NCBI RefSeq assembly: GCF_921293095.1 | Contig: NC_060258.1 | Coordinates: 1,054,001-1,118,000 of the forward strand | Length of the DNA stretch: 64,000 nucleotides | Direction of reading: 5' to 3' | Source: Ischnura elegans | Lineage: Eukaryota > Arthropoda > Insecta > Odonata > Coenagrionidae | Shown here: piece by piece, positions 1 to 62,385 of the stretch | Layout: each line of letters starts with the position of its first letter | Numbering within the stretch: position 1 is the stretch's first letter | Made by a program: the position numbers and the translations under genes | The notes under the pieces: model-generated | Database searches by the model: none | The model's input: the letters and a program-made list of their open reading frames with translations, nothing else | Told to the model about the DNA's origin: nothing

Positions 1-1100
1 GAAATGACAGAAGTGGCTGTGGGACCATCGTGGGAGGCAACAACGAGGTACTTAATTCCTTGATCGAAAATCCAGGGAACAATTCCAGTTCAAACGAAGA
101 TTCATATAATTGCGTCAACTGCAGAGATGTGTTCAACAACAAAAAGGAGCTAATGAAACACATGAAAATTCATTTTGTTGCCCGTAATTTTGATGCTGCA
201 GCAGAATCATCAATCGTAGATGTGTCATTAGAAGCACATCCATCAAGCGGACACAGCAGTTCTTGCGAGCCTACCATCTCAAAGGGTTTAGAAGAGCTGG
301 ATAGGAAAATGCTAGAGCCCATGCAAAAAGAAAATTTGCTCAACAAGGAAACCAGTGGAGGAAAAGGGGATGAGAAAAACATAAGACGATTCACGAGAAG
401 TTTCACAGTAGGAGAGAAATCAACTACACAAAGTTTATCTTCAAAGTCATCTAGCATTAGAAATGTACGCAATCACGTGGGTCCGAGAGAGGAAGATAAA
501 CCCTATTCATGCAGCGAGTGCACTGAGTCCTTCACTCAGAAAAGGGACCTCACCTTACACAAACTTAAACACACAAGAGGGAAAAGGTATTCTTGTAGCA
601 CTTGCAGGAAATCTTTCACTCGTAGAGGTCATCTCAATATTCACTCGCGAATACACACGGGAGAGAAGCCTTTTATATGTAAGGTTTGCAGCGAGTCCTT
701 CTCTAGGAAAGACGTTCTCTACGCGCACGTACGTAAACACACAGGAGAAAGGCCCTATTCATGCAACGTGTGTGAAAAGTCTTTCCCGATTAAGAGTAAC
801 TTAGTTAGACATGTACGCACGCACACGGGAGAGAAACCATTTTCTTGCAACGTGTGTGAAAAGTCTTTCTCGAGTAGTAGCCACTTAGTTAGACATGTAC
901 GTATTCACACGGGGGATAAACCGTATTCTTGTAGCATTTGCTGCAAGTGTTTCACTCAGAAGAGTATTCTCGACAGTCACACACGAACACACACGGGAGA
1001 GAAGCCTTTTTCTTGCAGTGAGTGTGAAAAGTCTTTCTCGCATAAGAGCGACTTAGTTAGACATATTCGTACGCACACGGGGGATAAACCGTATTCTTAA
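1..1100 (+). pseudogene. Truncated C2H2 zinc-finger gene copy (duplicate of the last exon of the ZAD gene)
   Basis: The frame is open from the left window edge, so the 5' part lies outside the window and the GTG at 30 is not a real start. It aligns codon for codon with the last exon of the gene ending at 57731 (base 1 corresponds to about 56134). It keeps one isolated finger (CVNC...HMKIH), a Ser/Thr-rich spacer, and seven tandem C2H2 fingers with TGEKP-type linkers. The eighth tandem finger is cut by TAA at 1098-1100, where the paralogue has a Cys codon after KPYS. All Cys and His ligands in the seven fingers are preserved, so a short DNA-binding protein could still be made. I call it a pseudogene because the array is shortened against its paralogue (13 tandem fingers) and further finger sequence follows out of frame. 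A functional truncated gene is the alternative. Confidence 0.8.
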
Positions 1101-1623
1101 GGGGTAAATTGTCAATATGCAAGAAATCTTTCACTCAGCCATCATCTCAAAAGTCACATTCGAACACACGCGGGAGAGAAACCTTACTCCTGTAGCATTT
1201 GCTGCGAGCATTTCACAAAGAGATGTTCTCTCGACAGTCACATGCGTTTGCATATAGGGGAGAGAGGCATTATTCATGACACGAGTGTTAAAATTCTTTC
1301 TCAAATAAGAACCACTCGGTGACACATTTTCGTATACATTCGAGAGAGAAGCCTTAGTCGTGCAGAATGTTCTTGAATGAAAATTCTTTTCACAGAAGAA
1401 GCAATGTGGTGGGACACATGCAAACGCACGCAGAAGAGACCTTTTTCACGCAGAATCCGCCAAAATAATCTTTCACTCAGAGTCGTTCACGTAAAAGTCA
1501 CATGCGAAACAACACGTAGGAGAAACCCTTCTCGTGCGGCGAATTATAGTGTCCCTCTCGACAAAGAGCCTCTTAGTACATTTGTACAAAAAAAACGGGA
1601 TTTGCTTTATTTCTGCAACGTCT
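1101..1623 (+). pseudogene. Fossil zinc fingers beyond the stop, copy A, 5' part
   Basis: After the stop, finger-like DNA continues in shifting frames: KSFT-like motifs, linkers that decode as HTRERNLT or CTR-like remnants, and C-x2-C stubs such as CSICCEHF near 1191-1215. It is collinear with 57600-58070 in copy B. It is no longer an open frame. The series is interrupted at 1623 by the inverted-arm element and resumes at 4946. Confidence 0.75.
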
Positions 1624-2455
1624 CACAGTGGGCTAGAATCGAAAAAAGCTGGCCAAAACCTCAAAATCGATTTTTTTGAGCTAGGAAGTTGAAACTTCGC
1701 ACACACATTCTCAAATAAATTGTGCATAACTGCCCAGATTATTTCGGTCCTGTGTTTTCACTTTAACAATATATGTGAGGTCAAAGTTGAGCAAATTTAG
1801 CGAAAAACGACCACCCTCGATTTTTTCTGAAAATTGCCGACTTTATCCTCGTGCAGTGGTTTTATAAATAGTTTTATCGACAAAACTGTAATACCATCTT
1901 AATTGACACTTCTTATTCTTTCATTTGAAAGGCTTTTAAAGATTTTGTTTCATCAATAACAATAGATACATAACAAAATGGCGGAGCCTGTTTTCAACCC
2001 ATTTTTTTACATAAACGTAGAAAAAAAGTAGACATTGTCACCGGCTTACACTAAGTAACTTATATCATGTCGTTCTTTGAAGCTTCTACATTGTGAATCT
2101 AAAGTCAAACCTTGCACCAATTTGCAACCCCGAATTTTAAATCGTTTTTTCGAACGCACGGACGACTCCGGTTCTGGCCGGCGGCGGCGGAGAGTACGGC
2201 GACGCGGCAAGCGGGTGGATGCAATATGGTCTCATTCACTTTTATGTGTGGATAACAGATATATTAGTGACAGAAAATAATCACCAGAAAGTAAAATTTA
2301 TAAATATTGCTACGAATGACTCTCATTATGAAATCGCTGGGCACTGCAAGAGGTGCACTGAAAGGTTTCTTTCTTTGAGTGCATTCCATGGAGAATGGAC
2401 TTAAATCGCGTTCTTAAAGTGGGGAAACGGACTTTTACTAACTAATAAACTTTTT
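1624..2455 (+). repeat. Left inverted arm of the CACAGTG element
   Basis: It is the reverse complement of 4117-4945. The outer part is AT-rich. Near 2150-2220 it carries a short GC-rich stretch of CGG-rich sequence encoding an Arg-rich run. Short ORFs inside (for example 2077-2280 and 2219-2404) have mirror twins in the right arm and are unlikely to be genes. Confidence 0.9.
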
Positions 2456-4116
2456 CAAAATAACAGTTAATATATTCCTTAAACGTGATAGAAAATGGCT
2501 CAATACAGCACTTGATTTTGCCGTATTTTGCCAAATCAAGTACTGTCTTGGTGCTTGAAGAGTTCATTATTCTTATTTAGTTTATATTCTTGATTTAAAG
2601 CAATTAATAACTATTCCTTATGCAGCACAATTTACATGTTGCTCTAGTTTAGCCAGTGCAGATGGACGTCAATTCATGTTTTCAGGGTTGTATCGAAAGA
2701 ACGAATAGGAGGAAAACGAATGCAAAAGGAAGATACAGTGACCATCCTCGGAGGCAAGAAGAACTCTTGCCAAGTGGATAAAATGCAACCCCGAATATTA
2801 TGTTATGTCAGATTAAGAGGCCCTCTCAATAAGTAATTGTGTCCATGCAGCTCACCAAATTTAGGTGCAAGAATCTTCGAAAATCTGAAATGCCAGGGAT
2901 ATAATATTAACCCCAGCGATGAGAGAGTGACGCGAGCATATGATTTCATTTACCCGAGTGAAATTATTGTAGCAGAGGTTATATTAGAAGTTTCCAAAAA
3001 TTGTTCTGTTCTCTTACTGCAACTCGAATCTTAACGTGCATTTCCACAGATCCTAGTTTCGCGTCGCATATAAAGTGCACTTTAATTTGAAAACACGGCT
3101 TTGATAGCAGTGAGGACATGCGAAATATAATTGCACGTGGGAACGAGGGCCTATGTCTCATGAATTATTGCTCGTGAGCACCTTTGTGCCTTCTTGTTTA
3201 GGTAAAAAATGCTGTTCGTTAGGCGAAGCATGAAACAGGCACGAGTATTCAAAAGTCATCACAATTATTCTAGATTTCCTCTCCAAATACATAATTTGAT
3301 TTTCTCTCTCTCTCTCACTGACGCTTTAAATACAATTATGGTATGCCACCAACCGTGCATAAGGTCTTCATTCAAGGAGCTGACATTGCAACAGAGTCCA
3401 TTCTTAATTGCGACAACTGACAGGGGAAGCAATATAGGCACGATATAAGGACGTGAGAAAGTTCCGTGAACGGTTGACTAGAAAAGTGGCACGAGTGGCC
3501 ACAAATAGGGATTTATTTCGAAGACAACTCCTAATGTCATAACTGATAATGACAAAAATTATGCCAATTAAACTGGAGGAAACACACAGCTTACCGAACA
3601 ATGTAATGGATCTGTTTTTGAAAAAGGAAAACATTGCTTTAGCTCAGACAGTGAAAGTGATAAAAACTCGTCAGATAGTGAATGAAAAACAGTAACCTTT
3701 TATTGTTGACAGTGCTAATTGCAGAATGTTAGTTGGGAAAAGCGTAAATTGTGTTGTTTTTGTTTATGTTATGTTTGTATGGTAAAATATTCCTGAAAAA
3801 TAACCATTTTGTCAGCAGCGCAGTTTTAAGAATAATGACGTTGATATATAGGTAAGAGATTTAAATCAATACTTTATATTGAGCATAAGACATAGATTAA
3901 AATCAACTGTTATTCTTAGAAAGAATACATTATTCGATGTGAGTAATATGCCTTCCGAAGCTTTTAAAGTTAAAAGGAGTTCAAACCAAAAACAAGTTCG
4001 AGGACTCGGCACTACAACAATACTATAAAACGACCGTTGTCCGAATGCCTTTAAATATGTATGGCAGGTTAGGAAGTGGAGGCCATAGATCATCGAGGGC
4101 TCTTGCCTAGAAATAG
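2456..4116. other. Unique core between the inverted arms, with exon-like fragments
   Basis: The 1.66-kb core matches nothing else in the window. No transposase motif is visible. Several short open stretches look codon-like: after a TTTTCAG near 2687 (47 codons to 2834), 3441-3542 (RERLTRKVARV region, basic), a Ser/Asp/Glu-rich tail ending in TGA near 3685 (SSDSESDKNSSDSE), and MPSEAFKVKR at 3948-4028. They lie in different frames. They could be decayed transposase or captured host exons; I cannot identify them. Confidence 0.4.
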
Positions 4117-4945
4117 AGCTTATTAGTTAATAAAATAGTCCGTTTCCCACTTTAAGAACGCGATTTAAGTCCATTCTCCATGGAATGCACTCAAAGAAAG
4201 AAACCTTTCAGTGCACCTCTTGCAGTGCCCAGCGATTTCATAATGAGAGTCATTCGTAGCAATATTTATAAATTTTACTTTCTGGTGATTATTTTCTGTC
4301 ACTAATATATCTGTTATCCACACATAAAAGTGAATGAGACCATATTGCATCCACCCGCTTGCTGCGTCGCCGTACTCTCCGCCGCCGCCGGCCAGAACCG
4401 GAGTCGTCCGTGCGTTCGAAAAAACGATTTAAAATTCGGGGTTGCAAATTGGTGCAAGGTTTGACTTTAGATTCACAATGTAGAAGCTTCAAAGAACGAC
4501 ATGATATAAGTTACTTAGTGTAAGCCGGTGACAATGTCTACTTTTTTTCTACGTTTATGTAAAAAAATGGGTTGAAAACAGGCTCCGCCATTTTGTTATG
4601 TATCTATTGTTATTGATGAAACAAAATCTTTAAAAGCCTTTCAAATGAAAGAATAAGAAGTGTCAATTAAGATGGTATTACAGTTTTGTCGATAAAACTA
4701 TTTATAAAACCACTGCACGAGGATAAAGTCGGCAATTTTCAGAAAAAATCGAGGGTGGTCGTTTTTCGCTAAATTTGCTCAACTTTGACCTCACATATAT
4801 TGTTAAAGTGAAAACACAGGACCGAAATAATCTGGGCAGTTATGCACAATTTATTTGAGAATGTGTGTACGAAGTTTCAACTTCCTAGCTCAAAAAAATC
4901 GATTTTGAGGTTTTGGCCAGCTTTTTTCGATTCTAGCCCACTGTG
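4117..4945 (-). repeat. Right inverted arm of the CACAGTG element
   Basis: It mirrors the left arm almost base for base. The two 61-codon ORFs at 2219-2404 and 4165-4350 translate identically, and the 67-codon pair at 2077-2280 and 4289-4492 differs by one Gly/Ser. This near identity implies recent insertion or arm conversion. Confidence 0.9.
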
Positions 4946-4950
4946 CGTCT

Positions 4951-5360
4951 GCAGCAAGTCTGTCACGCCATGATGCGACCTAGTAACCCATTCGTACACA
5001 CACTAGATAAACCTTGTCAGTGTAGCATTTGTTGGAAGTGTTTTGCAGGGAGTGGTTACCTTGACAGATATACATACATGCTCACACGTGTGAGCGCAGC
5101 CTTGTTTATGCATAGTCCGCATCACGTCCAACACTGCAAACAGTGGCCCTGACCCACACATGTGTAAACGTACAATTGTGATGTATTATTATTATTTCGT
5201 ATTTTGCACTAAGTCTCTCACTGTTATTTCTAATCCCAACCTCCACACGCGCTCTAAATTGAGAGACTATTCATGTTGTGTATGTGCGTGGTTTCACTCT
5301 GATAAGTCACGTTTACGCATGCAACATTTTCTTGCGGACAGGATAATTTAAATAAATGTA
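4951..5360 (+). pseudogene. Fossil zinc fingers, copy A, 3' part
   Basis: Continuation of the fingers interrupted at 1623. Remnants include CSICWKCFAGSGYLDRYTYM near 5020-5080 and KSLTVISNPNLHTRSKLRDYSCCVC near 5205-5290, each with stops or missing ligands. Collinear with 58075-58490. An AATAAA-like ATAAATG follows at about 5352. Confidence 0.7.
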
Positions 5361-8300
5361 ACAAATGTTCCAATTAAACCTAATGCAAAGCTACACGGAG
5401 GAGTGTAATGGTTAATTTTCGCCTGCACAACGAGAAATGAATGATGATATTGTGTCGATGGGCCATCTACATGTTTCTATGAAATGCGTGCCCAGTAATG
5501 TGTTTCTGGATTTTCGTAATGAATATTGAAAGAGAGTAGTTGCAGAAAAGGGCACACCCAGGCTATCAGATTAGGATGAAGCAGCCTACACTACACATTT
5601 TTGTTTAAACACGTCCACAGTATTTACTCCAATGTTTCTGGCTTTAAGTCCAGTCTTAATTGGCATCTTCTAATTGCTTCCGAATTTTCTTAGAATTAAT
5701 CATGTGTTCTTTGAATATTCTTTGTATAAATAATTATTCTTGTCCACATTTTGTAAATAATGTGATATCAGGGCACAATAAAAGGCTTATGGCCGAGTTT
5801 GTTAATTTAATGAATTCAGCATGTCATTTATTTTCATTGTTAAAAGATATGCAATTTTATTCCTATTTCTCTGTTTTCACTCGCGGCTGAGCGATTCGTC
5901 ACGATTTGTCGGAATGCACCGTCAATAGGACAGCAAGGAAAATCGTGGGCCATTAACCTTAGAACGGTGAAGTCGCGAGAAAAGCCAGCAATGGAGGTGG
6001 AAGATGTACAAACATTGGCAGAGTAAATGGGGATGTTATCGGAGGGTGGGAGAGTAAGCCGAGGACAGAAGGTGGATGCTAGGTGGCGCTGAGCGGACTT
6101 GCAGTGTTTGGTAGTGAGAAAATGATTCACATGACACGTCGGACGCAGCCAAAAGTAGTACTGCGGAGTGAGCGAGCACGGGATTCACCAATGTACAAAC
6201 TTTGGCCGCAATCCGTTCAGCCGTATGAAAACGCATAGCAGGTAGCAAACAGATATCCTCTTTTACGTGCAAAAAAAGATGAAGAGCATCCTGGCATTAT
6301 CACATCGCCGAGGAATGCCACACGTTCCTCCTTCTCAGAAGCTAGGTCCACATTATTATAATTAGAATTTATGCTACTTTGTACACAAATGTGGTTAAAC
6401 AATTTATCTCAGGAAAATAAAGAAACGTCCAGTCTACTTTAAAATTTCAATACCTTTTCAGAATGTAGATATGCATTTTAGGTTAACTAGAGGTTTCCCC
6501 TTTCTCCACTCACAAAGATTACATGATGTTACATTAGAGGGTGACCTTGCACAATTTGTCACCTCCACAGATGCCATTGGGTGTTTATATTTATTTATTG
6601 CCAAGGCCAACAATCTTTTTATGGATAGTTACTTACATTATGCTTACATTCCACTGTAAAATAAAATTAACGTAATTTGAAAATTAAATGTACTATACTC
6701 ACATAAATGTATGTGGCCAAAATATTAGATCAGTCATCTTTAGATAAACAACGAGAACTGACCCCAGTGCATGGCGTCTGATATATCGGATAAGATAAAA
6801 GTTATTAACATATTGAGAAAAAATTCAATAAAAAATAATTTAATTACCCTGTGGGACGACTGAAAGTTCTTTGAATGCCATATCTTACATAAATCCTTCT
6901 TAAGTCGATACATTCAAGTAGTCAGCTGAAATATTACCAGCGCAGTAAAGACAGACATCCATGTCAACTTAATATAGTATCACTATGTAGCGCATGTCAA
7001 TTGGAGCCCAGAAAGAAATTATATACGGAGGTTCGACGAATCGGACGCTATGCACTATTGAGTTATACCTTAAGCTGCGGAAACGTTTTTAAATGGTCTG
7101 CATTGTGATTGCGGGGAGAACGTGTGTTAACATTTGACCAATTTTCTCGCCACTGGCAGCCATATCTTAAGATTTCAACGTCGTCCTTTCCGCGGTCGCT
7201 TGAACTCGGCCAAACGTATACCCTTTTTTCTGAACTGACGGCGGCTGACCGTGAGCTTGCTCGAAACCCACCCACTCTTCTAGCCAATGACAGAAGAAAG
7301 TGTGGAGGAGCCCGCAGTCTCTCTCCGAGCTCCTTGCAGTGCTGATCCCTCTCCAGCTCGCGGTGTTGCCAAATCTAATCCGTTGGAACCGCACAGCGTT
7401 CGTCCTAGAACCATCCGCCGCTCCCGAAAGTACCGTTATTCCCAAGGCTGGCAACGCCGGTCGGCCGGATGGAGGGGAAAAGGGAAGGGGATGGAGGAGA
7501 AAGGAGAAGTGGAAGGGGCAGCGCTTCTGATGGTCTATTTTCCACCCAGCCGCCATCAGTTCGGAAAGAGGGTATAGTGGCAGAGAGCACAAAGGTGTCT
7601 TTCGGGGACTGGATACCCTCATCACGGGGAGCGCTGCCCGGATTTTCCCTTCTCCGAGAGGGAAAGAGCTCCCTACTTTCCGCGGCGCATTCACGATGAA
7701 AACAATTCCAACGATTCCTAGCATTTCCTAGGAATTTATTTATGTTGCTGTTGTACATTAGCCAGGGAAACTTATTTGAATGTATAGGTCTCTCCTTCTT
7801 GTACTATCGGCGGTGGATCTTTCGTCCCCGCGTAATTACCAAGGACATATTACATATACGGTCTGTCGCTAGGGGGTAGGGTGGGCAGTCCCGAATTAAG
7901 AGGGTTTATCACCTGCCAGACACACACTCGGGGTCGACGGAAAAATATCTTTCCCGCTCAGGTCCCGCACACAGTGGCAGAAAAATGTTGACGCTCCCGC
8001 AGTTAAAGGTTTAAAGCTACCGGCTGCGTCCGCCGAAGATGAAGATGTTGTGTCAACATTTAATCATTAAGTTAAGCTGCGACATACGCAAGTATATATG
8101 TCGAATAAGCAGTCGTGGAGAAAAGGTAGCAGTGATTCAAGCAGATATGAGCCTATCCCTGGGCAAGATAGGCCAACTAAATAATACACAAAGCATTTGG
8201 AAATGCCGCGATTTGGCGATGGGAGGCTTCTAAATATGCCTCGCATCATCTGGAGGAGAAGGCAGCGGGCCATCTTGATATGAGTAAAGGCAGGGGCCAC

Positions 8301-8740
8301 GGTGGTCAGTACAGCGACACATTTCACTGCAGGCGTGAGAACAGTTACGTGAACGGCTGTAGTAATGCGATGAGGAAGGCAAGGGGAAACAACCACATTA
8401 TTATCCCGAGGAGTCGCCGTCTCTCCAACGTTAAATTATCACTCACGATGGAATTCTTTTGGGTAAAACATTCCGGAGGTAAAAGTGGTCCCCCATTCTG
8501 ATCTCCGGGAGGAGACTGCCCGAGAGGGTTTAATGGTCACCTGCGATAAGTTTTGAAGATAGGTATAGTGGCGGATAAATTGACGCACAGCTCATCAGCG
8601 TCTGAATGCGGGCAGTTCAGGAACGACTTGTCTTCCAAAAAATCCTAGCGTTTTCAAAGTCAACCTTGTTCGTGCTTCGCGATGGCGGATAAACGAAATT
8701 GTCTATTTTGGTGGGCCTTTAGTGCGTTTCCATTCTGCAT
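5360..8740. other. Duplicated downstream flank, copy A; no gene recognised
   Basis: 5360-6820 and 7845-8740 are collinear with 58490-60010 and 60005-60900. I see no supported coding region. Open frames here, such as 8280-8501, are shared with copy B but contain no recognised domain. They may be upstream parts of the Penelope-like relic that follows. Confidence 0.6.
6820..7845. other. Copy-A-only block containing a GC-rich island
   Basis: Copy B passes directly from a poly-A stretch (near 60005) to GGACATATTACAT, whereas copy A carries about 1 kb between the same two points. The inner part, about 7100-7720, is clearly more GC-rich than its surroundings and opens several long frames on both strands at once, as GC-rich DNA does. 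A CCAAT lies near 7283. No domain, terminal inverted repeat or target duplication is evident. It could be an inserted element in A, a deletion in B, or a promoter-like CpG patch. Confidence 0.45.
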
Positions 8741-9250
8741 TCAAGGATGTACGCATCCAAGACATCGGAAAAAGGTGCGAGGATTCTGGAAAAATACGGC
8801 ATAGTGCACTTTTGTGACTTTGTCGTGTTCTGCAAGAATCCTGTGGCAAGGAGACAGACGACCCCATATGAAAGGCCTAGTGCCATTCAGATATATAGAC
8901 GAATAAACCGAGTCGAGTGCTCTTGCGGAGACTCGTGCATGTGCCAAACATCACGAGCCTTGAAATGCAGAATGAAAGAACACCAAAGAGCTACCAAGAA
9001 TAGATAATTTTGTTTGTCCGCCATCGCCGAGCATATATGGGGAAGGCCAATGCACAACGTGTACTTCGGAAACTCATCACCAGACAGAGGCAATAATTTC
9101 CCCGGCTGATTAAAGAGGCTATCGAAATAGCCAAAACACCAAGCTTCAACAGGGAGGACAGCTACTCGCTCTCCATTGCCTCGAAGAAACTCTTCCCCAA
9201 ACCAGCAAATTGCCTTAGCTTGCCGCATCTTACCATAATCAAGCCTTATA
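8741..9250 (+). pseudogene. Penelope-like element C-terminus with GIY-YIG-type endonuclease remnant, copy A
   Basis: The + strand reads IYRRINRVECSCGDSCMCQ then TSRALKCRMKEHQRATKNR before a stop near 9006. After frame breaks it continues with PRLIKEAIEIAKTP then SFNREDSYSLS. The pattern of CxCG, a GQT/R block, KxRxxEH, then KEAIEIxK...NREDxY is that of the endonuclease tail of Penelope-like retroelements. The Tyr-Ile-Gly core is mutated (CMCQ). It is a dead, 5'-truncated fragment, and the reverse transcriptase part is not recognisable. The same relic is in copy B. Confidence 0.65.
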
Positions 9251-9965
9251 TAAGACTGCAAAACATCTGCATCCGTCACTTCAAACCTGAAGACGCCTGC
9301 AGCATCGCTGGCGAAACTATCGTTGAAAGAAGAATCGGCGCTGAGGGCAAGTTGGAAGCCAAGCTGCACCAAGAGGCTAATATTACTTGGACTGTTCTCT
9401 CCCCGTTACGGAAGCGGCTTTCTCCGCTCCTTACTTGTTGGACCACAGCCAGTAAACAGGTGGGGGACTGCGCTGTCGGTTCGCTGCCTGTTTATTACTT
9501 TTGTTTTACTGCTGACATTTAACGTGTATGATTTACGTATATGTATTGCTAACATTCTACGGAAGAAAACTGTATATATCAATTTTCAATTGATCCCCCG
9601 GTTTGGAAGTTAGCAGAGGTTTGCGTTGTATACAACACATCCGTTAATTTTAGTGGTAAAAACAGCTTGTTTTCGGCTAACTACTAGTGATAGATGTGGC
9701 TTCTTCATATCAAGATTGCAGTTATAGGAACGAAAACTACGGTAATGTCAAGCGCTCAAATTAGGGAAACTTGATTTTACGCGCATAAAACGGGTACTTT
9801 TGGGGAAAAAATATTAAGAACTGAAAATACGATGACGCCGAAGATTTTTTGTGACAGGCCGACACAGAAATGAATTCTCTTTCGTATGATCTTTTTTGCA
9901 TTGAAGTTGATTGATTCGTTTAGACGCTAGAGCTCCTCAAACTAGGGTATCTTGCTTTTTTACAG

Positions 9966-10205
9966 ACAGTACATGAGCTAAAAATGATGCAAGACCCTTT
10001 GAGAATAATGGCAATAAAATACACGTATCAGGAGGTCACATTCTCTCCAGATCACCCCGTGATTAGGAAGAGGAAAATTCTCGAGCTCCTGAAGGAGAAT
10101 GAAGAATGTAGCCCGAGGAAGTGCAAATGGAGCATGCTATCCCCGTAAACGGTAACGAGGGGGCTGATGAAGATACATAATTCGAATCGATTGATGCAAG
10201 AGGAC
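9966..10205 (+). pseudogene. Unidentified exon-like ORF, copy A (broken)
   Basis: A pyrimidine tract and CTTTTTTACAG acceptor end at 9965, followed by an open frame homologous to 62146-62385. The frame breaks at TAA 10146-10148, where copy B reads a Glu codon. I do not recognise the product. Confidence 0.45.
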
Positions 10206-10525
10206 CGAATTCTTTCCAACACAAATGAGACTCCCTCTTCTACATACAAGAGGGAAAATTTGAATGAAGTTCAAGAGCAAGCATGAGCAAAAAATGGCTG
10301 TTCTCGAGCGATTGCACTTTCTCTAACCAAAGTTGAAAATAAGTCTGTTTCTTTGCCCATCCCTGCCTGATTATGATGGTGACTCTATTGAAAACTTGAA
10401 TTTATCTTTTTGAGACTGTGTATGGAGAAACTCCTGAGAATATTCAGAGTATTGGTATATTTTTAGTGAAAAACATAGTACCTGGGTGTAATGTACAATC
10501 CATCAGACATTGTCCAAGTGTCATG

Positions 10526-12260: not shown

Positions 12261-12375
12261 AGGGGAATACATATTTAACCCAAATATCAAGGAGTTATTC
12301 CGCTATTTTTGACATTTTTTTCATTGAAAGTAGCGCAATGATAAAATATATCACTCCATCGCAAGTGGGCGAAGA

Positions 12376-14263
12376 ATAGGGTAGTTTCCTTCATCAAAGA
12401 AAACGATAGGCATTGATTGCGATTCGTTACCCACCATTAGTGTATTCATAATACACAAATTATTTGGTTTTTGAAATACCGGTTTAGACGAATGGCAAGG
12501 GTCAAATTTTATCCTCAATTTGAAAAGGCCAGATTGGCACCCATGCGATTCCACTCCGCGTGACGTCACAGGGACCTAGTTTCAACACGAGAGGATAGGA
12601 GTTATACATCGTTTGAGGTTACCAATGCATGCATGAGGCACAGAGCTCAGGGAAACATGTCTTAATAATCACCTATTAAAACTGGCTAAGGTCGGAAAGT
12701 TTTCTTCGTTTGATAAAGTATTAATAAACCTTTTTTTAGCCAAGCGCTACCATTCAGCAAGATTCTCAGCTATCCGCTAGCATCTTGCGTCCTATCAGCG
12801 CTCAGAGCCTCGATCAGGGTCACTTCACAAGGAGAGAGGGAGAACCAGAAATGCGTCGCGCAGACTTTTCTACTTACGCGTCGCGTTTTTGCGCGCTTGA
12901 AAATTTTCACTTTTCATTTAATCGCGAAAAATAGATATCGTCATTTAAAAATCTAAAAGCGCGAAATACGTACTCCAGGAGTAATAATCTTTCGATTTAG
13001 GCAATAAAAAATAATAGGAAACCACCCTATTGGAATTTTGGTTGAAAATATTTTGAGATGAACCAGCAAGACACCTAATAACCCATCTAATTGGAAATGA
13101 AAGAAATAAAGTACGCGCGAAGTTCGAAAAATGTGGGGCAAATTGATTGGTTCTGTGGTTGAGATAATTCTGTTCAATTCAAGCATCTGTTAGATTCAAG
13201 CTCATCTGGCACTTCATCTTGCGGTCAGACTTATATTCGGTCTTAAGTAGGGCTTGCAAGTTGAAGATGATTGCCATGAAAGTAGTTCAGAAACGATATC
13301 CCACGGCTAATGACAACACCGAAGTAATCCAGTGAGTGACTACGCTTCGAGATTATTGATATATAAAAACAGCAAAAGAAACGTCGCCGCGGGTGAAGGA
13401 AAAATAGTTTAATTTCCAAACTTCAATATACTCCTATGGTAAAAAATTTTAATCCATCCAAATCTAATAAAAAATTGTCCCGTAGCAGATGCAAGTTTAT
13501 ACTTACATATTTTCGTATCATCTCAACAGAAGAAACTATTAATCACCAGCAAAGGCTTATCCATACATTTGGGAGCGCAACTTCCACCAATAGGATAGTT
13601 TACTTCATCAAAGAAAACGAAAGGCATTGATTGCGATTCGTTACCCACCATTAGTGATATTCATAATATACAAATTATTTCGTTTTAAGAATACCGGTTT
13701 AGACGAATGGCAATGGTCAATTTTATCCTCATTTGATAAAGCCCAGATTGGCGCCCATGCGATGCCACTCAACGTGATGTCACACGGACCTAGATTCTAT
13801 ACGAATAGATAGGAGTTTTACATCGTCTGAGATTACCAATGCCTGCATGAGGCACAGAGCTCAGGGAAACATCTCCTAATAATCACCTATTAAAATTGCC
13901 TAAGGTCGGAAAGATTCCTTCGTTTGATTAGGTAGATATTAACAATCCACATTTAAGCCAAGTGCTACCAGCAGGCAGGGTACTCTGCTACCTGCTAGCA
14001 TCCTGCGTCGTATCAGCGCTCAAAGCCTCGCCCCAAGGTCACCTCACTTGCGGCAGCGGGAACGAGAACGACGTCACACGGACTTTTCTCAGCGTTAATA
14101 CTTAGCCGTCGCGTTTTCGGACGCTTGCAAATTTTCACTTTTCATTTATTGGCGAAAAATAGATATCGTCATTAAAAAAATCTAAAATCGTGAAATACGT
14201 ACTCCAGGCGTAACGATCTTTCGATTAAGGCAATAAAAAATAATAGGAAACCACACATTTTGA
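12376..14263. repeat. Direct tandem repeat of an unknown ~0.65-kb unit at 1.21-kb spacing
   Basis: 12380-13032 and 13594-14263 align along their length. Shared blocks include CATTGATTGCGATTCGTTAC, ATGAGGCACAGAGCTCAGGG and AAATACGTACTCCAGG. Both run from a TAGTTT-CTTCATCAAAG start to an AATAATAGGAAACCAC end. Divergence is moderate. No ORF is conserved between copies, so this looks like an interspersed non-coding repeat duplicated in tandem. Confidence 0.75.
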
Positions 14264-16100
14264 AGCCTGAATTTGTTGAAATTAGTTTAAATATTGAAAT
14301 TAACACTTGCAATGTTTCACGATCATAAAATAATTTATGTCGACCTCGGTTTCAATCTTCGCGGTACAAATGGTGCGCAGTGCATTTATTTGACACAATT
14401 GTTTTATTTCAGTTGGGGAATTAATGCCTGTTCTACACGCTCGGATCAGCTCATCCGGCTTAACTCAGCCTAATCGCTCTGCGCGAACCCATTCTTAACG
14501 AGAGGCTTAAGTCGACCCCTCGCCATCTGATGGCAATGACTGAAAGTCTAAGAACACTTGAGAATCGGCGAGCGCTGAAGTATTTCATGGAAAAATTTCT
14601 AGCAAAGCAGATAATTAACGGATTTATTTTGGAAGATCAGTGTAAACCCGAGTTAATATCTGTGGTACTTCTACGGAAGGAGATGAATTTAGAATAATTA
14701 ACATGATTTTTCGTCGGCTAAGGCGATAATACTTCCTCAGGTTTTGTTACCAGTTAAGTAGAGAATTTCGAAGTTTTTGCATCGAAAAATGTCATAAATG
14801 TATATTTGGTATATTATGACTCCATTTATTAAATATTACGAATGTTTTGGATCATTAATGGAATGGCTATGAAGGTGACCGCGAGAAGATGGCAAGAACG
14901 CTGACGAGAAGGCGACGACGGTAAAGGCTTTCAAATTTTTTGTTATTTTTTATTTTGGAACGTATTATAATATTCCAGTAAGGACGTTGGTCTCATCCGC
15001 AATCCCATTTCGAGCACCTCCCGCTAACTTTGTCATTTATGAGCTCAGTGAGAAGAACCACACTCAGAAGAAAACCGAACGCAACCAAATACACGCGCCA
15101 TGTGTGAGAGAGAGAGAGGTGATGACAACAGCGCAGCGTTTTACTTAAGCTGGGAGTCCCAGGCGAGATGATCCGACCCCCTCGGCTGAGCCGTGGCAAC
15201 GTCTCTAAGGGGAGAGAGGAGATGGAGACACTTGAAGAGGAATGAGAACGGAATAGAGATAGCGGGGTAAGATGACGATTGGGGAAAAAACAGAGAAAGT
15301 TGTAGTGGGAGTTGGTAAGGGGGGAAATGCAGCGTTTTTTTGGGGTCAACAAAATTTTCTCAGAAACATTCCAACATCCACGTGACGGCGGTCTTCCTTT
15401 CCGGTGGAATTGGGGGGTGTTGTTTCGGGAGGGAGTGCATGCATGAATGGTTGCGGTGCCGTCGGAGGAGGCAGGCAGCCGGTCGGATTAGCGGTCATCC
15501 TAAGAACCTAAAGGTTATTCTGAGGGCGCAGGGGGGTGGCTGGGCTGTTGGGTTCACAGTATGTCGTACAATAATCTACATAATACCCTGCGAGCCACCT
15601 CTAGGGGGTTTGGCAGGGGGTGACAAATCACCAACATGCAGCATGCAAGAGGACCGCCACATGCACACCACACGGTCACAGAAATATTTCGCATACTAGT
15701 AAAATATACATGCTTATTCATAAAAAAAACTTGCATGAATTTACTCTAGGAATAACTAAGCATTAGCAAGGTTAGAACTATGAAAAATACATGCAATAAG
15801 TGATCCTAGCAAGCGACGCCACTAATACTATCAATTGAGACAACCTTGCTATCCTTAACACTACGAGGGAAGAATGACATTTTTAATCTCTATGTTTTGC
15901 AGTCTATTTCTTTTATTTTATTCTCATGATCACGTCTACTATAGTACGATGGTAATACATACAGCGGGATGTTTTAACACTTTGAATGGGGGAAGGAGTG
16001 GGGGGAGGTGGATTTGTCGATTCTTCTAGGCACACACTCTATTTAAGATTAATAAGGTAGATCATGCGAAACACAGCTCGCGATCTTTCTTCACGGCGTT
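14264..16100. other. Intergenic region with GC-rich patch at ~15.0-15.6 kb
   Basis: No gene is supported. The stretch 15000-15620 is GC-richer, with a GA microsatellite near 15105-15120. Open frames in it on both strands (14993-15352 and 15340-15699) have low-complexity composition and no domain. Confidence 0.45.
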
Positions 16101-36409: not shown

Positions 36410-36523
36410 ATCCCCTATGAAAAAATTGTATAAAACTGTTTCAAATTTTTATACATTGCCATGGTAATGTATAAGAATGTATAAAAATTTGAAACAGTTT
36501 TATACAATTTTTTCATAGGGGAT
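36410..36523. repeat. Perfect 48-bp inverted repeat with 18-bp loop
   Basis: 36410-36457 (ATCCCCTATGAAAAAATTGT...) is the exact reverse complement of 36476-36523, with GCCATGGTAATGTATAAG as loop. It could be a small foldback MITE. No target duplication is obvious. Confidence 0.9.
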
Positions 36524-50700: not shown

Positions 50701-53700
50701 TTTCCTCTTTATTTTGTATTTAATTGTTGTAGTTTTCTTGCCTTATATTTTTCTATGTTAAATCTTGGTACCGATGAAGCAAATATCAATATGATATTTA
50801 TTTTACTATAAACTATCCTGTGACCAATAAATCATGCCTCATGAAGATGTTTATTTTACAATATGAAATCCCAGGACTGATAATTCATTGCTCATTAAGA
50901 AAATCAGGTCTCACATTTCAATCAAGCTCTGTAGTGTTGAAGTTCATTGGAAGCTGTCCTCAAATCTCGTCGCATATTAGGTTATATAACCAATGGTTTT
51001 AAAAGTGGAATGCAGTTCAACATATATATACCTAATATAATCCCATAGAAATGGTCTCCCTTTAAGTAGGAGCGGTAGCCCGGTGTTAATGTCCTAGGTT
51101 TGATGTTTACATGTAGCACTTTTCAAAATTTGTTTCTACTTTTCATTTTACAAATGTCAGCTGTTCATCATTTTCTCCATGATTTTCACTGAAAATTTTA
51201 CGAGGGGTGTTTTTAAAGCAAGTACCGTTCTGTCATAAAAAAACAAGTAAATTATTTCTTTAAAAATTAATTTATTCAATTGTAAGGCTACTCTACATTT
51301 CTACATAATTTCCTTTATTATTGAGGCATTTATCGTATCTTGGGACCAGCTTTTGTATGCCATCGTCAAAGAAGCTTGCCGCCTGATTAGACAACTACTG
51401 CTTCACGGTCGTTTTCACTTTGTCATCTTCAGAATGGCGCAGTTCTGCCATTAAGGGTGTGTTGCTAGTCAATTTTTAGACTTGCAGCGATGCAATAAAT
51501 GCAGCAGCGTACTGTGCGACTGTACAAAAAATGCACTGCCCTATTCAAAACAAAAGGCGTGGCATGCTGAGTGCATGTGTCGTTTTGCTCCATGATAATG
51601 AACGTCCACACACAGCAAATCAAACTCAAGACCTTATCACTTCTTTTGGCTTGGTACAATGAAACCACCCTCCATACAGTCCCGTTCTAGTGCCGAGCAA
51701 ACATTTGTTTATGTACTTGAAGAAGCATCTGGCGGATCAGCACCATTCCGATGATGGTGAAGTGAAAACGACCGTGAAGCAGTGATTGTCTAATCAGGCG
51801 GCAAGCGTGTTTAACCATGGTATACAAAAGCTGGTCCCAAGATACGATAAATGCCTCAATAGCATTGGGAATTATGTAGGAAAGTAAAGTATGGCCTTTC
51901 AAGTGAATAAATTATTTTTGAAAAAAAAATTAATTCTTGTTTTTTTATGTCAAAATGGTAGTTACTTTAAAAATGCCCCTCGTAGTTTTCTAAGTGGAAA
52001 TCTTTTTCTGCAATGCAGTGTCAGATTTTATCCCATTTTTTCATTCAGATGCCTAGTTTCCATTATGTAATTTCAGTTTATTCATTGCCAAAGAAACCTT
52101 AATTATTACATGGTATCACATGAAGTAAATTACATCCATTGCAGAGTTATCAAATGAAGTTAATATTACAATGCAGGCAGAACATAAATCAAAGTCCGTT
52201 TACATGTTGAAAAAATGGAATAATATTTAGATCCCTGAAGTGTTGAAAATATTTTTATTTTGGGAGGAAAAATTTGTGCGGAACTTTATATTTTGTTGTA
52301 ATGTTGTTTATAAAAAAGTTTAAATCAATCGTTTCAAAATAAGTCCTGAATCTCTTTTCGTGCATGATTAATATCTTGATGATTACTTCCAGCATACTTT
52401 AAGTGAGGATGGGGACCCATTTGAGAGTTCAGCTACTGCCCATGAGTCTGCATTTGGTGAGTACTCTTACGGGTTGCAAATAACTCTATACTTGGAGGGA
52501 TTGGTGTTAATGTGGAGGATATACAAGTAAATGCTTTTATTTAGCCAACTTTTACTGTGACTAGAGCAATTATTGAAAATTTGACAGTGTCCCATAAGTC
52601 CACAATGGAAGCCATGGATGAGTGCTTTTAAGGGCCTCAAATAGTTGCATACAAGTTAGGCTTAGGTCACTTTCAGATGGCACGGTGCTGTGCTTTAATA
52701 TAATCTAATGTCCCTACCGATGCCTTCATACCAGTCAAATCATGCGGTGTTCTCCACTGCGCCCATTTCTAACCGGCCAGGAACGGCAGCATCAACAGCG
52801 TCAACTGGTCATGAAACTCAGACCGCTTTCAGATGAGAAAACTCTGGATTTCCTTGTGCCATGCGGAGAATGTAGGAAAGTTGAAAGTGGTCTCTTCTGA
52901 AATCGGCCTTATTGTGACTGATTCAGAAGGATGAAGAACCCAAATTAGTCATCCATCCATATTTCCTGTTGTCTTTATTTTAAGTAGTAATTGGATAGGG
53001 GAGAAGTTTTATATTTACTTACTTTTTTGTAGTCATCTGAATCGTTTTTAATAGTCTTCCCTAGCAAAATATTTTGGTTTCACTGAAATTTTTGGGTATG
53101 TAAATCAGAAATGGCTAAGAATTTTTCTTTATTTTCTCTATTTGGCATTTTTGGCAGTCAGAGTCATATTAAATGAATAAAAAGAATGCTGCCTTGCTTC
53201 AAGCATGCTTAGAGACTAGTTTATTGAAAGAAAAAAATTTACTCGTAGTAGCCGCACACCTTTTTTCCAGAAATGCCTGTGAAAAGCGGTGCGAATCCTC
53301 AAAATTATAAACCCAAAAAGCCAGAATGGAGCATTTTGTTTGAGAATTGAGTGTAGAAATGTAAATTTCAGGGTCGATTGAAAATGTAAACATGGAACTT
53401 GGTCAAATGAGGGCAAAAATTAACTTTGCTTTTGGACCATTTTAAATTTGTGGGAAAATTAGCAAAAATCTTTTAAATGAGTGCATTCCTATTCACACTT
53501 TTGTCCTTGGGATTAGCAATGGTGCTTCGTTAGGTTTTACTGACAGCTAGGCATGAAGCTTCCTTGGAGGAGAAAATATGGTTGATATAATATTAAATTT
53601 AGAGGTATGCTCCAGAAATGAAATCAGTTTGGCTAAGCAACAGCCGAATTCTTGATATCAATCAAATAATTCTACATTCAATCTGCATGATAACCTGAAA

Positions 53701-56700
53701 GGCGTGTGGTAGGGGGTGTTAGGACTTCCTCTGTTCTTACATAAAAAGGATATGCTCTATCGGAATTAGGACTAGCGTTTATTAAAATGCCTTACGGCTC
53801 GGGGGAAAAACGAATTCCCCTATCTACCCGTTCCGCAAAACAACTCTTTTAATTTATCGCTTCTATCGGACCTGGAAATATAATGGGGCTCTAATATTTT
53901 GTCCTCCGTGTTGCTTTTAAAGAAATCCAAACTCAACTGTTCAAGAAATCTAAGCCTAGCACGCAGCCTTCGAGTCTCCAGCGGCTCAGTCCAAATTACA
54001 TAACATCTGGGTAATGCTTTCTGTACAAAGGTAGTGGTTTTTGACGAACCACACAGCCTTCCCTGGTATTTTTTTCAGTTTGCTGATCAAGTCTTTCTTC
54101 GCCGGATCCCATACGCTCGTTGCATTATCAAGGTGCGGTCGGATGAGTGCAAAATAGCACCTTTCTTTTACTTTCTCATCTGAAAATCTTCCCACAATAC
54201 GCTTGACAAATCATAATTTCTTCAGGGCTATGCCACAAATATTTCTTATGTGTGTTCCCCACAATTGGTTCAAGGTTATCGTTTCTCCCACGTACTTCAC
54301 TTTGTATGTTGCCTCTATGTTAATACCATCCACTGCATAAACATGGTTATAGATGCACGAATTGAACAAGAAATGTACCGTCATGTATTTTCTCAGATTA
54401 AGTTCAAGTCCCCTCTCTTGGCTCCACAAATGAACGTTGTTTCAGTCCAATGATAGAATTTCATAGAGTGATCACTAATTTCGCGATAGATGACAGGGTC
54501 GTCAGCAAGTAAACGTGTTATACTGCTAATGCGGGAGCAGAGTTCATCAATGTATATAATGAACAGCAGGGAGGAAAAATATATTTTTCCCTTAGCCAAA
54601 ATAATTGCTGAAAGAGAAAGGTCTTTATACGCTGGTGCAAAAAAAAGAAATAAGAGATGAATTCGGAGAGAAATTTTCCCTTGCAAAAGCAAAGCAGGGA
54701 ATTCATCTCTCTTTAGTTCCCAGAAGAATTGACGATAGTGTCATACTGACCCAAAATAATAAATTAGTCCTTGTTCTTTATAAAATGATTCTGATTGATT
54801 TATGATTCTGCCATTGATGCTGAAAGGGATAGCCAAAATAAGTCTTATATGCTTACATCCTACAACAACTAAAATTGATGTTGATCTAGTGGACGTCCAA
54901 TTCTGTGCAAAAACTATACTGCAGGACGTAATACAAGATGGCAGCCGTAGGTCATTCTTTTACTAATTATAGAAAATTTCTGCTTTCATTGCCCTTGTCA
55001 TTTTAGTGGTTCATTAAATATCTTCTCAAGTTTTTAGGAGTGGTTTTCTGCAGAAGAAGGCTTGGGAAATGATTAAACTGCATATAATGAAAAATTCTGG
55101 AAATGCTACTATCCCAACACAAATAAGAGCTCAGGTTTGCGTGCAATACTTGGAATATCTGCCCCCGGTGCCGCTCCAAACCATTGTTTATCTCATGGCA
55201 GTTGGGTATTTTTCACTCAAGGGAGGTTCTTTTGGCTGTTTGTTCATAGTTTTTATTTTTAAATTTTTAATTACCTCTATGAAAACTAATCCAGGAAAAA
55301 TTCAAAATAATTTTTCTAGATACTCATTTGCAGCACCACAAAATTTATTGTGATTGCCATTGTTGGGAACCTTTTTTATTTAGAAAATACTCACCAATCA
55401 TTAAATATTCGATTGAACAGAAAATATTTTTTCCTTTTTAAAGGACAAATTCTTAAAGGGGTCTAATTTTATTCTTTTCCTGCAATTGGAAGTCAAATGT
55501 GTGTGCTTGATTATTTGTATAATGATTTCGTCTTTTTTGTTCTACTACACCCCTGTTGCCCTCGTCATTTTTATGCTATGTGTTCTTTTCCCCTCCATTC
55601 ATTTACATCGAGTCTCTAAGTTCAAGTCCAACTTGGGCAGCAATTGTACCACCTGTTTTTACATTTTTCCATCCATTCAATGGATTTAAAATAGAAGATG
55701 TTATAGTCTTAAATTTCATGTTCGACGGTGTTAGTTGCTATTTAAAATTTTCTTCTAGGGGTCCCGGCTGCCGAAGAAATGCCCGAGCAAACAACATCAA
55801 CTTCATATCTGCTTGCAGAAGGAAATCTAAGGAATCATTCAATTGATGAATGCACTGGTCCCACAGCTTTGGTGACACAAATTGATTCCAAGGCTGGAAC
55901 CTCCCATGAAGAGATAGAGAAAAATCTGATAGATGAAGACTTGGAAAAATGTGGTGCTTCTGATTCTGATAAGATATCAAGTTGCTCAATTCCTGATGAC
56001 AGACAATGTAATATCAAAGATATTGAATCACTTAAAAGCAGCAGAGGTGGAGCCGCAATGGCTGTTGTTGGGGAGAAAAGTGGTTGTGATGCACCAAATA
56101 CCTCGCATAACCTTAGGTTTATCAGAATAAGTAGAAATGACAGAAGTGGCTGTGAGACCATCATGGCAGGCAATGAGAAGATACTTAATTGCTTGATCAA
56201 AAATCCAGGGAACGGTTACAGTTCAAACGAAGATTCATATAATTGCTTCAACTGCAGAGATGTGTTCAACAACAAAAAGGAGCTAAGGAAACACATGAAA
56301 ATTCATTTTGTTGCTCATAATTTTGATGCTGCAGCAGCATCATCAATCGTAGATGTGTCTCTGGAAGCACATCCATCAAGCGGACATAGCAGTTCTTGCG
56401 AGCCTACCACCTCAAAGGCTTTAAAAGAGCTGGAGAGGAAAAGACTAGAGCCTATGCCAAAAGAAAATGTGCTCATGAAGGAAACTAGTGAAGGAAGAGG
56501 GGGTGAGACAAATACAAGACGATTGACGAGAAGTTTCACTCTGGAAGAGAAATCAACTTCACAAAGTTTATCTTCAAAGTCATCTAGCATTAGAAATCTA
56601 CGCCATCACGTGGGTCCGAGAAAGAAAGAGAGACTGTATTCATGCAGCGAGTGCACTGAGTCCTTCACTCAGAAAAAGGACCTCACCGCACACAAACTTA

Positions 56701-57731: not shown

Positions 57732-58500
57732 ATCATGACACTAGTGTGAAAGGTCTTTCTCGAATAAGAAGCACTTAGTGCCACATTTTCGTATGCACTC
57801 GAGAGAGAAGCCTTGGTCGTGCAGAATGTGCGAAAATTCTTTTAAAGAAGAAGCTATCTGGTACGACACATGCAAAAGCACATAGGGAAGAGACCCTTTT
57901 CATGCAAAATCTACAAAAATAATCTTTCACTCAGGAGTCGTTCACTTAAGAGTCACATGCGAAACAGCACGTGAAAGAATCCTATTCGTGTGGTGAATTG
58001 GAATGTCTCCCTTGACAAAGAGCCTCTTAGTTCATCTGTACAAAAAACGAGTTGCTTTATTTCTGCAACGTCTGCAGCAAGTCTGTCACGCCATGATGCG
58101 ACCTAGTAACCCATTCGTATACACACTGAAGACAAACCTTATCAAATGTAACATTTGTTGAAAGTGTTTTGCAGTGAGTGGTTACCTTGACAGATATTCA
58201 TACATGCTCACACATGTGAGCAGCCTTGTTAACGCATAGTCCGCATCAAGTGCATTACTACAAGGAGCGGCCCTGACTACCACATGTGTAAACGTACAAT
58301 TGTATTGTATTATTTTTGCGTATTTTGCAATAAGTCTTTCACTGTTATTTCTAATCTCAACTTCCACATGCGCTTAAAAGTGAGATACTCTATCCATGTT
58401 GTGTGCTTTCCGTCAGAAAAGTCACCTTTGCGCATGCAACATTTTCTCACGGACAGGATAATTCATATAAATCTTACAAATGTTATACTTAAACCTCATG
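57732..58500 (+). pseudogene. Fossil zinc fingers beyond the stop, copy B
   Basis: For about 770 bp after the stop, finger-like DNA continues at roughly the 84-bp finger period with frameshifts and stops: KPWSCRMCENSF, LLYFCNVCSKSVTP, then FCNKSFTVISNLNFHMRL near 58330-58380. Copy A has the same remnants. The ancestral array was therefore about eight fingers longer. Confidence 0.7.
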
Positions 58501-60900
58501 CAAAGCTGCACTTAGGAGTCTAATGTTTAATTTTCGCCTGCACAACGAGAAGTGGATGATTGTATTGTGTCAATAGGGATGATGGGCCATCTACATGTTT
58601 CTATGAAATGCGTGCCAAGTAATGTGTTTTTGGGTTTTCGTAATGAATATTGAAAGAGAGTAGTTGCAGAAAAGGGCACACCCAGGCTATCAGATTAGGA
58701 TGAAGCAGCCTACACTACACATTTTTTATTAAAGACGTCCACAATATATTTTTCCAATGTTTCTGGCTTTAAGTCTAGTCTTCATTGTCATATTCTAATT
58801 GGTTCGGAATTTTCTTAGAATTAATTATTTGTTCTTTGAATATTCTTTGTTAAAATAATTATTCTTGTCCACATTTTGTAAATAATGTGATATCAGTGCA
58901 CAATAAAAGGCTTATGGCCGAGTTTGTTAATTTAATGCATTCAGCATGTCATTTATTTTCATTGTTAAAATATATGCAATTTTATTCCTATTTCTCTGTT
59001 TTCACTCGCGGCTGAGCGATTCGTCACGATTTGTCGGAATGCACGGTTAATAGGAAAGCAAGGATAATCGTGGGCCATTAACCTTAGAATGGTGAAGTTG
59101 CGAGAAAAGGCAGCAATGGAGGCGGAAGATGTACAAACATTGGCAGAGTGAATGGGGATGTTATCGGAGGGTGGGAGAGTAAGCAGAGGGTGGAGAGTGG
59201 ATGCTAGGTGGCGCTGAGCGCACTTGCAGGGTTTGGTAATGAGAAAATGATTCAGAGGACACGTTGGACGCAGCCAAAAGTAGTACTACGGAGTGAGCGA
59301 TCAAGAGATTCATTTATGTACAAACTTTGGCCGCAATCCGTTCAGCCGTCTGGAAACACATGGCGGACAGATAAACATGTATGAAAGATTACATATGAAA
59401 AAGATTAAGCGTATCCTGACATTATCTAATCGCCATAAGTTCCTCCTACAAAGCTAGGTTCACATTTTTATATCTAGAATTTATGATACTTTGTATGCAT
59501 ATGTGATTTTAAAATTTATCTGTGAAAAATAAAGAAAAAGTCTGGACGACTTCCATATTTTAATACCTTTTCAGAATGAAGAAATGCATTTTAGGTTAAC
59601 TAGAGGATTCCTCTTTCTCCACTCATAAAGATTATATGACGTTATATTTGAGGGTAATCTTGCATCATTGTCGCTTCAGAGGTGCCATTGGGTGTTTATA
59701 TTTATTTATTGCCAAGGAAAAAATCTTTTTATGGATAGTTTCTATCAATACGCTTGCGTTCAATCGTTAAATAAAATTTAAAATTAAATTTACTATGCCA
59801 AAATAAAAATTTTTGGCTAAATATAAGAGCAGCCACTGTTAGATTAGCAAAGAGAATTCACCCACTTGCATGGCATCCGATATATCGAACGGCGGTCAAT
59901 TTTGGTAATATAGAAAATAGCGAAGAACAGCTTGAGGAAATATGAAAGAATAAGATCAACCTTAAGGACAAAAACGAGATGTAAGTAATCAATATATTAA
60001 GAAAAAAGGACATATTACATTCGTGGTCCGTCGTGAGGGGGTAGGGTGAGCAGTCCCGGATTATGAGGGTGCACCACCTGCTAGACACACGCCCGGGGTC
60101 GATGGAAAATATCTTCCCCGCTCATGTCCCGCACACTCTGGCAGAAAAATTTTGACGCTCCCCCAGTTAAAGGTTTACAGCCACCGACTGCGTCCGCCGG
60201 GGATGCAGATGTTGTGTTGACATTTAGCCATAAAATTTAGCAGCGACATAAGCAACTTTATGTGTCGAATAAGCAGTCATGAGAAAAGGCGGCAGTTATT
60301 CGAGCAGATTTGAGCCTATCCCTGGGCAAGATAGGCCAACTAAAGAATACACAAAGCCTTTGGAAATGCCGTGATTTGGCGATGGGAGGCTTCTAAGTAT
60401 GCCTCGCATCATCTGGAGGAGAAGGCAGTGGGTCATCTTCATATGAGTAAAGGCAGATGCCACGGTGGTCAGTACAGCGACACTCATATCACTGCAGGCG
60501 AGATAACGTTTACTTGAACGGCTGTAGTGCTGCGATGAGGAAGGTAAGGGGAAACAACCACATTATTATCCCGAGGAGTCGCCGTCTCTCCAACGTTAAA
60601 TTATCACTCACGATGCAATTCCCTTGGGTAAAACATTCCGGAGGTAAAAGTAGTCCCCCATTCTGATGTCCGGGAGGAGACTGCCCGAGAGATTTTAATG
60701 GCCACCTGCAATGAAGTTTTGAAGATATGTATAGTGGCGGAAAAAATTGACACACAGCTCATTAACGTCTGAAAGCGGCCAGTTCAGGAACCACTTGTCT
60801 TCCAAAATTTCCTAGTGTTTAGCGTTTTCGAAGTCAATCTTGGGCGTGCTTAGCGATGGTGGATAAACAAAATTGTCGATTTTGGTGGGCCTTTGGTGCG
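58500..60900. other. Duplicated downstream flank, copy B; no gene recognised
   Basis: Matches 5360-8740 except that the copy-A block 6820-7845 is absent and about 110 bp near 59885-59995 is present only here. No supported coding sequence. Confidence 0.55.
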
Positions 60901-60929
60901 TTTCCATTCTGCATTTCAATGATATATGC

Positions 60930-62145: not shown

Positions 62146-62385
62146 ACAGTACATGAGCTAAAAATGATGCAAGACCCTTTGAGAATAATGGCAATAGAAT
62201 ACACGTATCAGGAGGTCACATTCTCTCCAGATCACCCCGTGATTAGGAAGAGGAAAATTCTCGAGCTCCTGAAGGAGAATGAAGAATGTAGCCCGAGAAC
62301 GTGCGAATGGAGCATGCTTTCCCCGGAAACGGTAACGAGGAGGCTGATGAAGATAAATAATTCGAATCGATTCCAACACAAATGA
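62146..62385 (+). CDS. Unidentified exon-like ORF, copy B (open)
   Basis: It starts right after GCTTTTTTACAG and is open for 79 codons to TGA 62383-62385. The peptide has a charged, helix-prone character: YTYQEVTFSPDHPVIRKRKI, LELLKENEECSPR, WSMLSPETVTRRLMKI. The homologous frame in copy A is broken by one nonsense change. It may be a terminal exon of another gene, part of a retroelement, or chance. I do not recognise it. Confidence 0.4.
   Translation, partial: TVHELKMMQDPLRIMAIEYTYQEVTFSPDHPVIRKRKILELLKENEECSPRTCEWSMLSPETVTRRLMKINNSNRFQHK

Follow-up and report, generated by a model that had tools for sequence, protein, structure and literature searches.

The element described here, a 3322-bp transposon, lies in the genome of the blue-tailed damselfly, Ischnura elegans, at positions 1624-4945 of the window, the window being the whole stretch of 64,000 nucleotides that was analysed. 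The window carries, at 1-10525 (copy A) and 56134-62684 (copy B), a diverged duplication about 56 kb apart with paired C2H2 zinc-finger genes, the two members being 85-90% identical in long stretches and 74% identical in part of the finger region; a strict motif finds 8 C2H2 fingers in the copy A frame and 14 in copy B. The C2H2 frame of copy A runs from 3 to 1097 and that of copy B ends at 57728, with the empty site downstream. The insertion sits in degenerate zinc-finger sequence about 520 bp past the stop of the C2H2 frame, which has thus been left unbroken by the element. Other repeats observed in the window include a direct duplication of about 700 bp (12375-13054 and 13589-14288, spaced about 1.2 kb, 83% identical), a pair of inverted arms, each about 270 bp long, around a short loop (51181-51450 and 51730-52002, 82%), possibly another old transposon, and a perfect 48-bp inverted repeat with an 18-bp loop (36410-36523). 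The features of the element and of its unoccupied target are as follows:

1619-1623, no strand: left target-site duplication CGTCT, present as a single copy at the empty site 58069-58073
1624-2426, forward strand: left inverted arm of 803 nt without gaps, extending to about 2451 when gaps are allowed
1624-1630, forward strand: left terminal heptamer CACAGTG, found at both element ends
1653-1661, forward strand: A-rich nonamer-like block CCAAAACCT of the left end, 22 nt after the heptamer
3337-3617, forward strand: decayed C-terminal portion of a Transib transposase, left as a remnant with a frameshift and stop codons (E=1.6e-10)
4143-4945, reverse strand: right inverted arm, from the inverted-repeat alignment
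4908-4916, reverse strand: A-rich nonamer-like block of the right end
4939-4945, reverse strand: right terminal heptamer CACAGTG
4946-4950, no strand: right target-site duplication CGTCT
58069-58073, no strand: unoccupied target CGTCT in the paralogous copy B, from the alignment to copy B

The two arms differ at 3 positions over 803 nt ungapped (arm positions 77, 583 and 801); with gaps, about 829 nt are alignable at 99.2% identity. No open reading frame longer than 79 amino acids is listed between the arms of the window copy. The terminal sequence CACAGTGGGCTAGAATCGAAAAAAGCTGGCCAAAACCTC is read at both ends, and CACAGTGGGCTAGAATCG, which is likewise the sequence of both ends, occurs in the window twice exactly and once more with three mismatches, where 0.03 occurrences are expected by chance. 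The three-mismatch end match at 43879 was considered as another Transib-like element and rejected, as it is not among the paired ends with equal flanks. When the window was scanned for CAC...GTG pairs whose ends are alike and whose 5-bp flanks are equal, the element came first at 16/16, against 11/16 for the runner-up. The first-pass annotation had proposed CACAGTG at both termini, a 5-bp duplication CGTCT, an empty site in copy B and an A-rich block about 22 bp inward with a partial match to the nonamer of the V(D)J recombination signal sequence (RSS), and each of these was borne out. Both ends read identically; the duplication lies at 1619-1623 and 4946-4950; the block starts 22 nt after the heptamer, CCAAAACCT matching the RSS nonamer ACAAAAACC at 6 of 9 positions. 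The flanks joined at one CGTCT match copy B without gaps (60 of 60 in the alignment row that crosses the junction), and the paralogous locus at 56134-60162 shows a single CGTCT there with no further sequence. The window contains 11 occurrences of CACAGTG where 5.8 are expected, so that the heptamer alone is unremarkable, while the full set of features is remarkable.

The family to which the element belongs was surveyed in the genome of 1,722,721,009 bases in 110 contigs, from which the loci denoted here by L-numbers were fetched. The 22-bp end, with up to 2 mismatches, gave 3573 matches genome-wide (1758 forward and 1815 reverse), against 1 and 0 for its reversed control. The window copy shares 94-98% identity with the eight copies that were fetched, which makes the family fairly young. 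Target duplications were sampled in 20 copies with both ends among the 100 exact matches listed of the 3573 (contig C1 and part of C2), four further listed pairs (two on C2, together with L038 and L041) being left out. Exact 5-bp duplications were found in 19 of the 20, the exception having one extra base beside the left end, and in 7 of a second set of 8 copies, the eighth showing CGACG/CGTCG; a length of 5 bp, which the first-pass annotation had proposed for checking, is thus the rule. Among the 19 exact copies the duplication is CGNCG in 12, the bases by position being C(18)/G(1), G(15)/A(4), N, C(16)/T(3) and G(19), and an A before or a T after the duplication occupies 26 of 38 symmetrised positions, giving a palindromic A-CGNCG-T context. 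The heptamer is CACAGTG at all 40 ends of the sampled copies, which were themselves sampled by exact match to this end, and CAGAGTG at 1 of 16 ends in the 8-copy set (L039).

Several copies show structures of their own. L041 (239-5490) is a window-family copy with a DDE_1-type transposase frame of 619 codons and equal duplications CGATG. The presence of a hAT or other transposase in relatives had also been named as a check, and the fully read copies gave one other type, this DDE_1-type gene, which reads as a passenger insertion. L034, L035 and L036 adjoin a common repeated sequence of about 55 bp that is present near the other end of each copy too; in L034 it stands directly against both ends, inverted and 98% identical over 56 bp, with unequal duplications (CGACG/CGTCG), as would be expected of a chimera formed by recombination between copies. 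A short derivative of the family, about 1.1 kb long with the duplication CAACG, lies at C1:167331877-167332989.

The interior of the element points to its origin. The remnant (element 1714-1994, window 3337-3617) matches the C-terminal part of Transib transposase with a score of 47.0 bits, against a best of 24.6 among 200 shuffles of the interior; eight other copies carry the same stretch, and one of its stop codons falls at the expected position of the catalytic glutamate in the alignment as read by eye. The remnant DNA is 67-70% identical over 112-185 bp to the transposase exons of L054, L055, L057 and L058, a group of exon-split transposases, with 70% over 144 bp for the L055 exon, and the closest transposase found, that of L055, agrees with the remnant at 46% over 84 residues.

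Transib transposases are abundant elsewhere in the genome. The Pfam RAG1 profile gave 12 weak matches in the whole genome (best E 0.011), none over the cut-off, and these pointed to long open frames. One of them, L011 (550 codons), aligns with the HzTransib transposase 6pqn over residues 37-507 (E=7e-117; E=6.6e-86 for a 400-residue part) and, taken as a protein, clears the RAG1 profile cut-off with 34.2 against 25 bits. The catalytic residues of HzTransib are given as D126, D225 and E436 in excerpts from PMC6941560; these correspond to positions 109, 208 and 419 of the 6pqn chain by a single offset of 17, and L011 keeps all three acids in the 6pqn alignment. Protein searches of the genome for Transib transposase returned at least 118, at least 88 and at least 150 matches, the best candidates being scored, and some of the matches sit in open frames of 550-714 codons; in families C and D (L029 and L030) the matches were seen with short open frames only. 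Groups of near-identical Transib sequences were also observed, for example 13 places with equal score and 78% identity to the L055 query, which suggests recent activity of several families.

The ends of these families were compared with those of the window element. Paired ends between equal 5-bp flanks were found for 15 elements: the window element, L041, the outer element of L025, six members of family A and a single member of each of families B to G. CACAGTG is present at all 30 of these ends, the pair search having required CAC, GTG and end likeness only and not the full heptamer; the seven transposase-bearing families with paired ends (A to G) thus have this heptamer. Single ends only were read in L028, L043, L045, L048, L052, L053, L056 and L059; as these were located as CACAGTG sites, the fair count for the heptamer is that of the 30 paired ends. 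No convincing end pair was found for L027, L032, L045, L047 and L048, and L028 has an end pair with unequal flanks (CGCCG/CGTGC); these loci stand outside the 15 pairs. A different heptamer, CACATAG, is found in L049 (670-codon frame) at 1200 and 4058, with unequal flanks ACGCG/AGACG, and in L047 (714-codon frame) at 1223, and CACAGTG is therefore common among the families read and not universal. In L047 and L049 the block ACAAAATTA lies 23 nt inward of CACATAG and is the same as in the CACAGTG families; the scan for CACATAG ends covered spacers of at least 23 nt, a range that misses the known 22-nt ends. Over 39 ends (30 paired and 9 single), 35 show GG(N)(C/T)AAAA, starting 22 nt after the heptamer in 16 and 23 nt in 19, and 4 are off the pattern. 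The best match to the nonamer is 8 of 9 positions, in family C, against 6 of 9 in the window element.

Families M (L055, L056 and L059) and A (L011) share the layout of CACAGTG with a CAAAA block with the window family and, unlike the window family with its remnant, carry transposase sequence; the duplications of family A are CGNCG, as in the window family. In family A the inverted ends are imperfect and some 40 nt long, no long arms being seen; of family M one end was read. This end, in L059, lies 2.1 kb from the L055 transposase, is 76% identical to the window element end over 79 bp, recurs in L056, and is taken as belonging to the element of the L055 transposase.

With the Transib superfamily elsewhere (HzTransib of Helicoverpa zea; hopper and transib2 of Drosophila) the window element has in common the CAC termini, the 5-bp duplications and the transposase homology, and it differs in lacking an intact transposase and in having arms of about 800 nt. 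The target of hopper and transib2 is CCANTGG according to excerpts from PMC3276498, in contrast to the CGNCG-like target of the window family; a GC bias in the target duplications of Transib, ProtoRAG and RAG is described in part of PMC8289069, which also gives the RSS consensus as CACAGTG / ACAAAAACC. The vertebrate 23-RSS has the same heptamer as the window element, with which it also shares an A-rich block at 22-23 nt spacing, whereas the 12/23 pairing of V(D)J signals is replaced by a 22-nt spacer at both ends, with no 12-spacer partner. Such ends are not new in kind, since Transib ends that resemble RSSs, with identical heptamers in some elements, and symmetric spacers of 20-22 bp have already been published (passages of PMC6941560 and PMC8355894, respectively). 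A literature search for Transib in Odonata returned PMC5199201, and one for Transib in Ischnura elegans returned nothing; subscription journals and Repbase lay outside these searches, so that the family may be catalogued elsewhere.

A coding copy with the ends of the window family was looked for among the coding loci fetched, by blastn with the element, and was not found; several of these loci did not show both ends. The comparison gave related ends only, at 86-89% in the outer element of L025, 85% in that of L043 and 76% in L056. Among the matches listed on contig C1 there are 81 exact ends and 30 transposase places, the closest pair being 8.96 kb apart. The 5252-bp locus C1:70998838-71004089 was rejected as an autonomous copy, being a window-family copy with a DDE_1-type frame of 619 codons. 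The 706-codon Transib frame of L043 was rejected as a partner, since an end at 666 intervenes before the outer end at 139 (85% like that of the window element), and the frame was assigned to the inner element; right ends with an exact heptamer were not found for either L043 element. Nesting of Transib in Transib was seen in both loci, L025 having 2025-5333 inside 1456-7781 with CGGCG duplications on both members, and L043 having 666 inside 139. Given the outcome of this search, mobilisation of the family in trans stays an inference.

We are highly confident that the element represents one copy of a non-autonomous Transib family of high copy number, presumably served in trans and with arms that exchange sequence. 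A Transib transposase supplied by other elements would recognise the CACAGTG end together with the CAAAA block about 22 nt inward, would cut at the heptamer, and would integrate the element into CGNCG-like sites, where a 5-bp stagger would yield the 5-bp duplications; the cut chemistry would be as in HzTransib and RAG, by analogy, with a nick, a hairpin on the flank and a blunt element end. The interior represents what is left of an ancestral coding copy, namely the C-terminal remnant, between arms of about 800 nt. The Transib assignment suggested in the first-pass annotation is thus supported by the 5-bp duplications, the transposase remnant in the interior and the Transib-bearing elements with the same end layout. 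Coincidence of the heptamer was rejected, as the duplication, the empty site, the copies and the remnant are all independent of it.

It is very improbable that the element belongs instead to another CAC-ended superfamily of the CACTA/Chapaev type or to hAT, with a coincidental likeness to the RSS. CAC termini do occur in other superfamilies, and heptamer-length matches are common by chance (11 against 5.8 expected); however, the duplications of 5 bp in 19 of 20 copies are neither the 3 bp of CACTA nor the 8 bp of hAT, and the interior holds a Transib remnant. Passages of PMC3276498 give the duplications as 8 bp for hobo (hAT) and 5 bp for the Transib element hopper. Derivation from a RAG-like transposon carrying RAG1L and RAG2L, in which 5-bp duplications and CAC ends also occur (part of PMC7204232), can hardly be credited either: L011 aligns nearly end to end with HzTransib at the E-value given above, RAG1L (6b40) and RAG1 match weakly over about 80 residues (E 0.045 and above), and the Pfam RAG1 profile has no whole-genome match over the cut-off. 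Convergent RAG1L/RAG2L genes between the ends are absent from the window copy, which has no listed open reading frame above 79 amino acids. The term RAG-related accordingly holds at the superfamily level only, and nothing suggests an antigen-receptor-like function.

Returning to the Transib family, the arms of each copy are far more alike than the copies are. Nine copies show 0-2 differences between their arms over 781 positions, L041 shows 0 over 571, and two test copies fetched later show 4 and 0 over 781, against a divergence of 0.1 to 4.2% between the arms of different copies, and for 24 of 24 arms (12 copies) the nearest neighbour is the arm's own mate. Differences from the consensus are present in both arms in 84 cases and in one arm in 6 for nine copies (L041 excluded), and in 120 and 10 cases, respectively, for twelve. 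In eight copies the average divergence is 4.1% for the interiors and 2.0% for the left arms, L034 and L041 being excluded from this comparison. The changes shared by the arms comprise 48 AT-to-GC and 45 GC-to-AT, with no strong GC bias. Independent mutation with cut-and-paste transposition is unable to give this pattern, which implies that the arms exchange sequence, within copies or within the founders of subfamilies. The HiFi reads of I. elegans derive from DNA sheared to 12-20 kb (methods text of PMC9975421), which is longer than the element, and collapse of the arms in assembly is therefore unlikely.

The arm identity within a copy is best accounted for by gene conversion of the paired inverted arms or by template switching from one to the other; the route of exchange may have been either of these or excision-linked repair. 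It is unlikely that near-identity of the arms reflects recent insertion or a few young master copies without any exchange. The copies are 94-98% identical and the family is fairly young, and 75 of the 120 differences shared by both arms recur in another copy, as subfamilies predict; nevertheless, cut-and-paste preserves differences between arms, so that subfamily divergence with both arms alike would still need exchange, and young masters do not account for the changes private to one copy (12 copies), 45 of which are in both arms and 10 in one, or for all 24 arms being nearest to their own mates. Exchange between arms has a counterpart in Galileo, a member of the P superfamily with a P-type transposase and a duplication length different from that of the window family; its ends are unrelated, and its arms are alike within and unlike between copies, as in the window family. 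Excerpts from PMC2775673 describe two copies of Galileo in Drosophila buzzatii with long inverted repeats over 99% identical within a copy and differing by about 7% between copies, and two further, chimeric copies with about 6% divergence within the copy. It is conceivable, as a tentative extension, that the family is a Transib lineage of foldback-like architecture in which arms of about 800 nt repeatedly rewrite each other, each copy being a self-templated palindrome, and that the exchange may be coupled to RAG-type excision and repair, with the same outcome as in Galileo.

These results offer the study of V(D)J origins an insect genome rich in Transib families, of which some have long open frames for the transposase. 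Most of the families read combine the exact RSS consensus heptamer with a CAAAA block at 22-23 nt and one has CACATAG. Cleavage of such ends by vertebrate RAG, and the positions that matter for it, are now directly testable. The arm pattern, in turn, shows sequence exchange between the long inverted repeats of a transposon related to RAG, either in the copy itself or in its founders.
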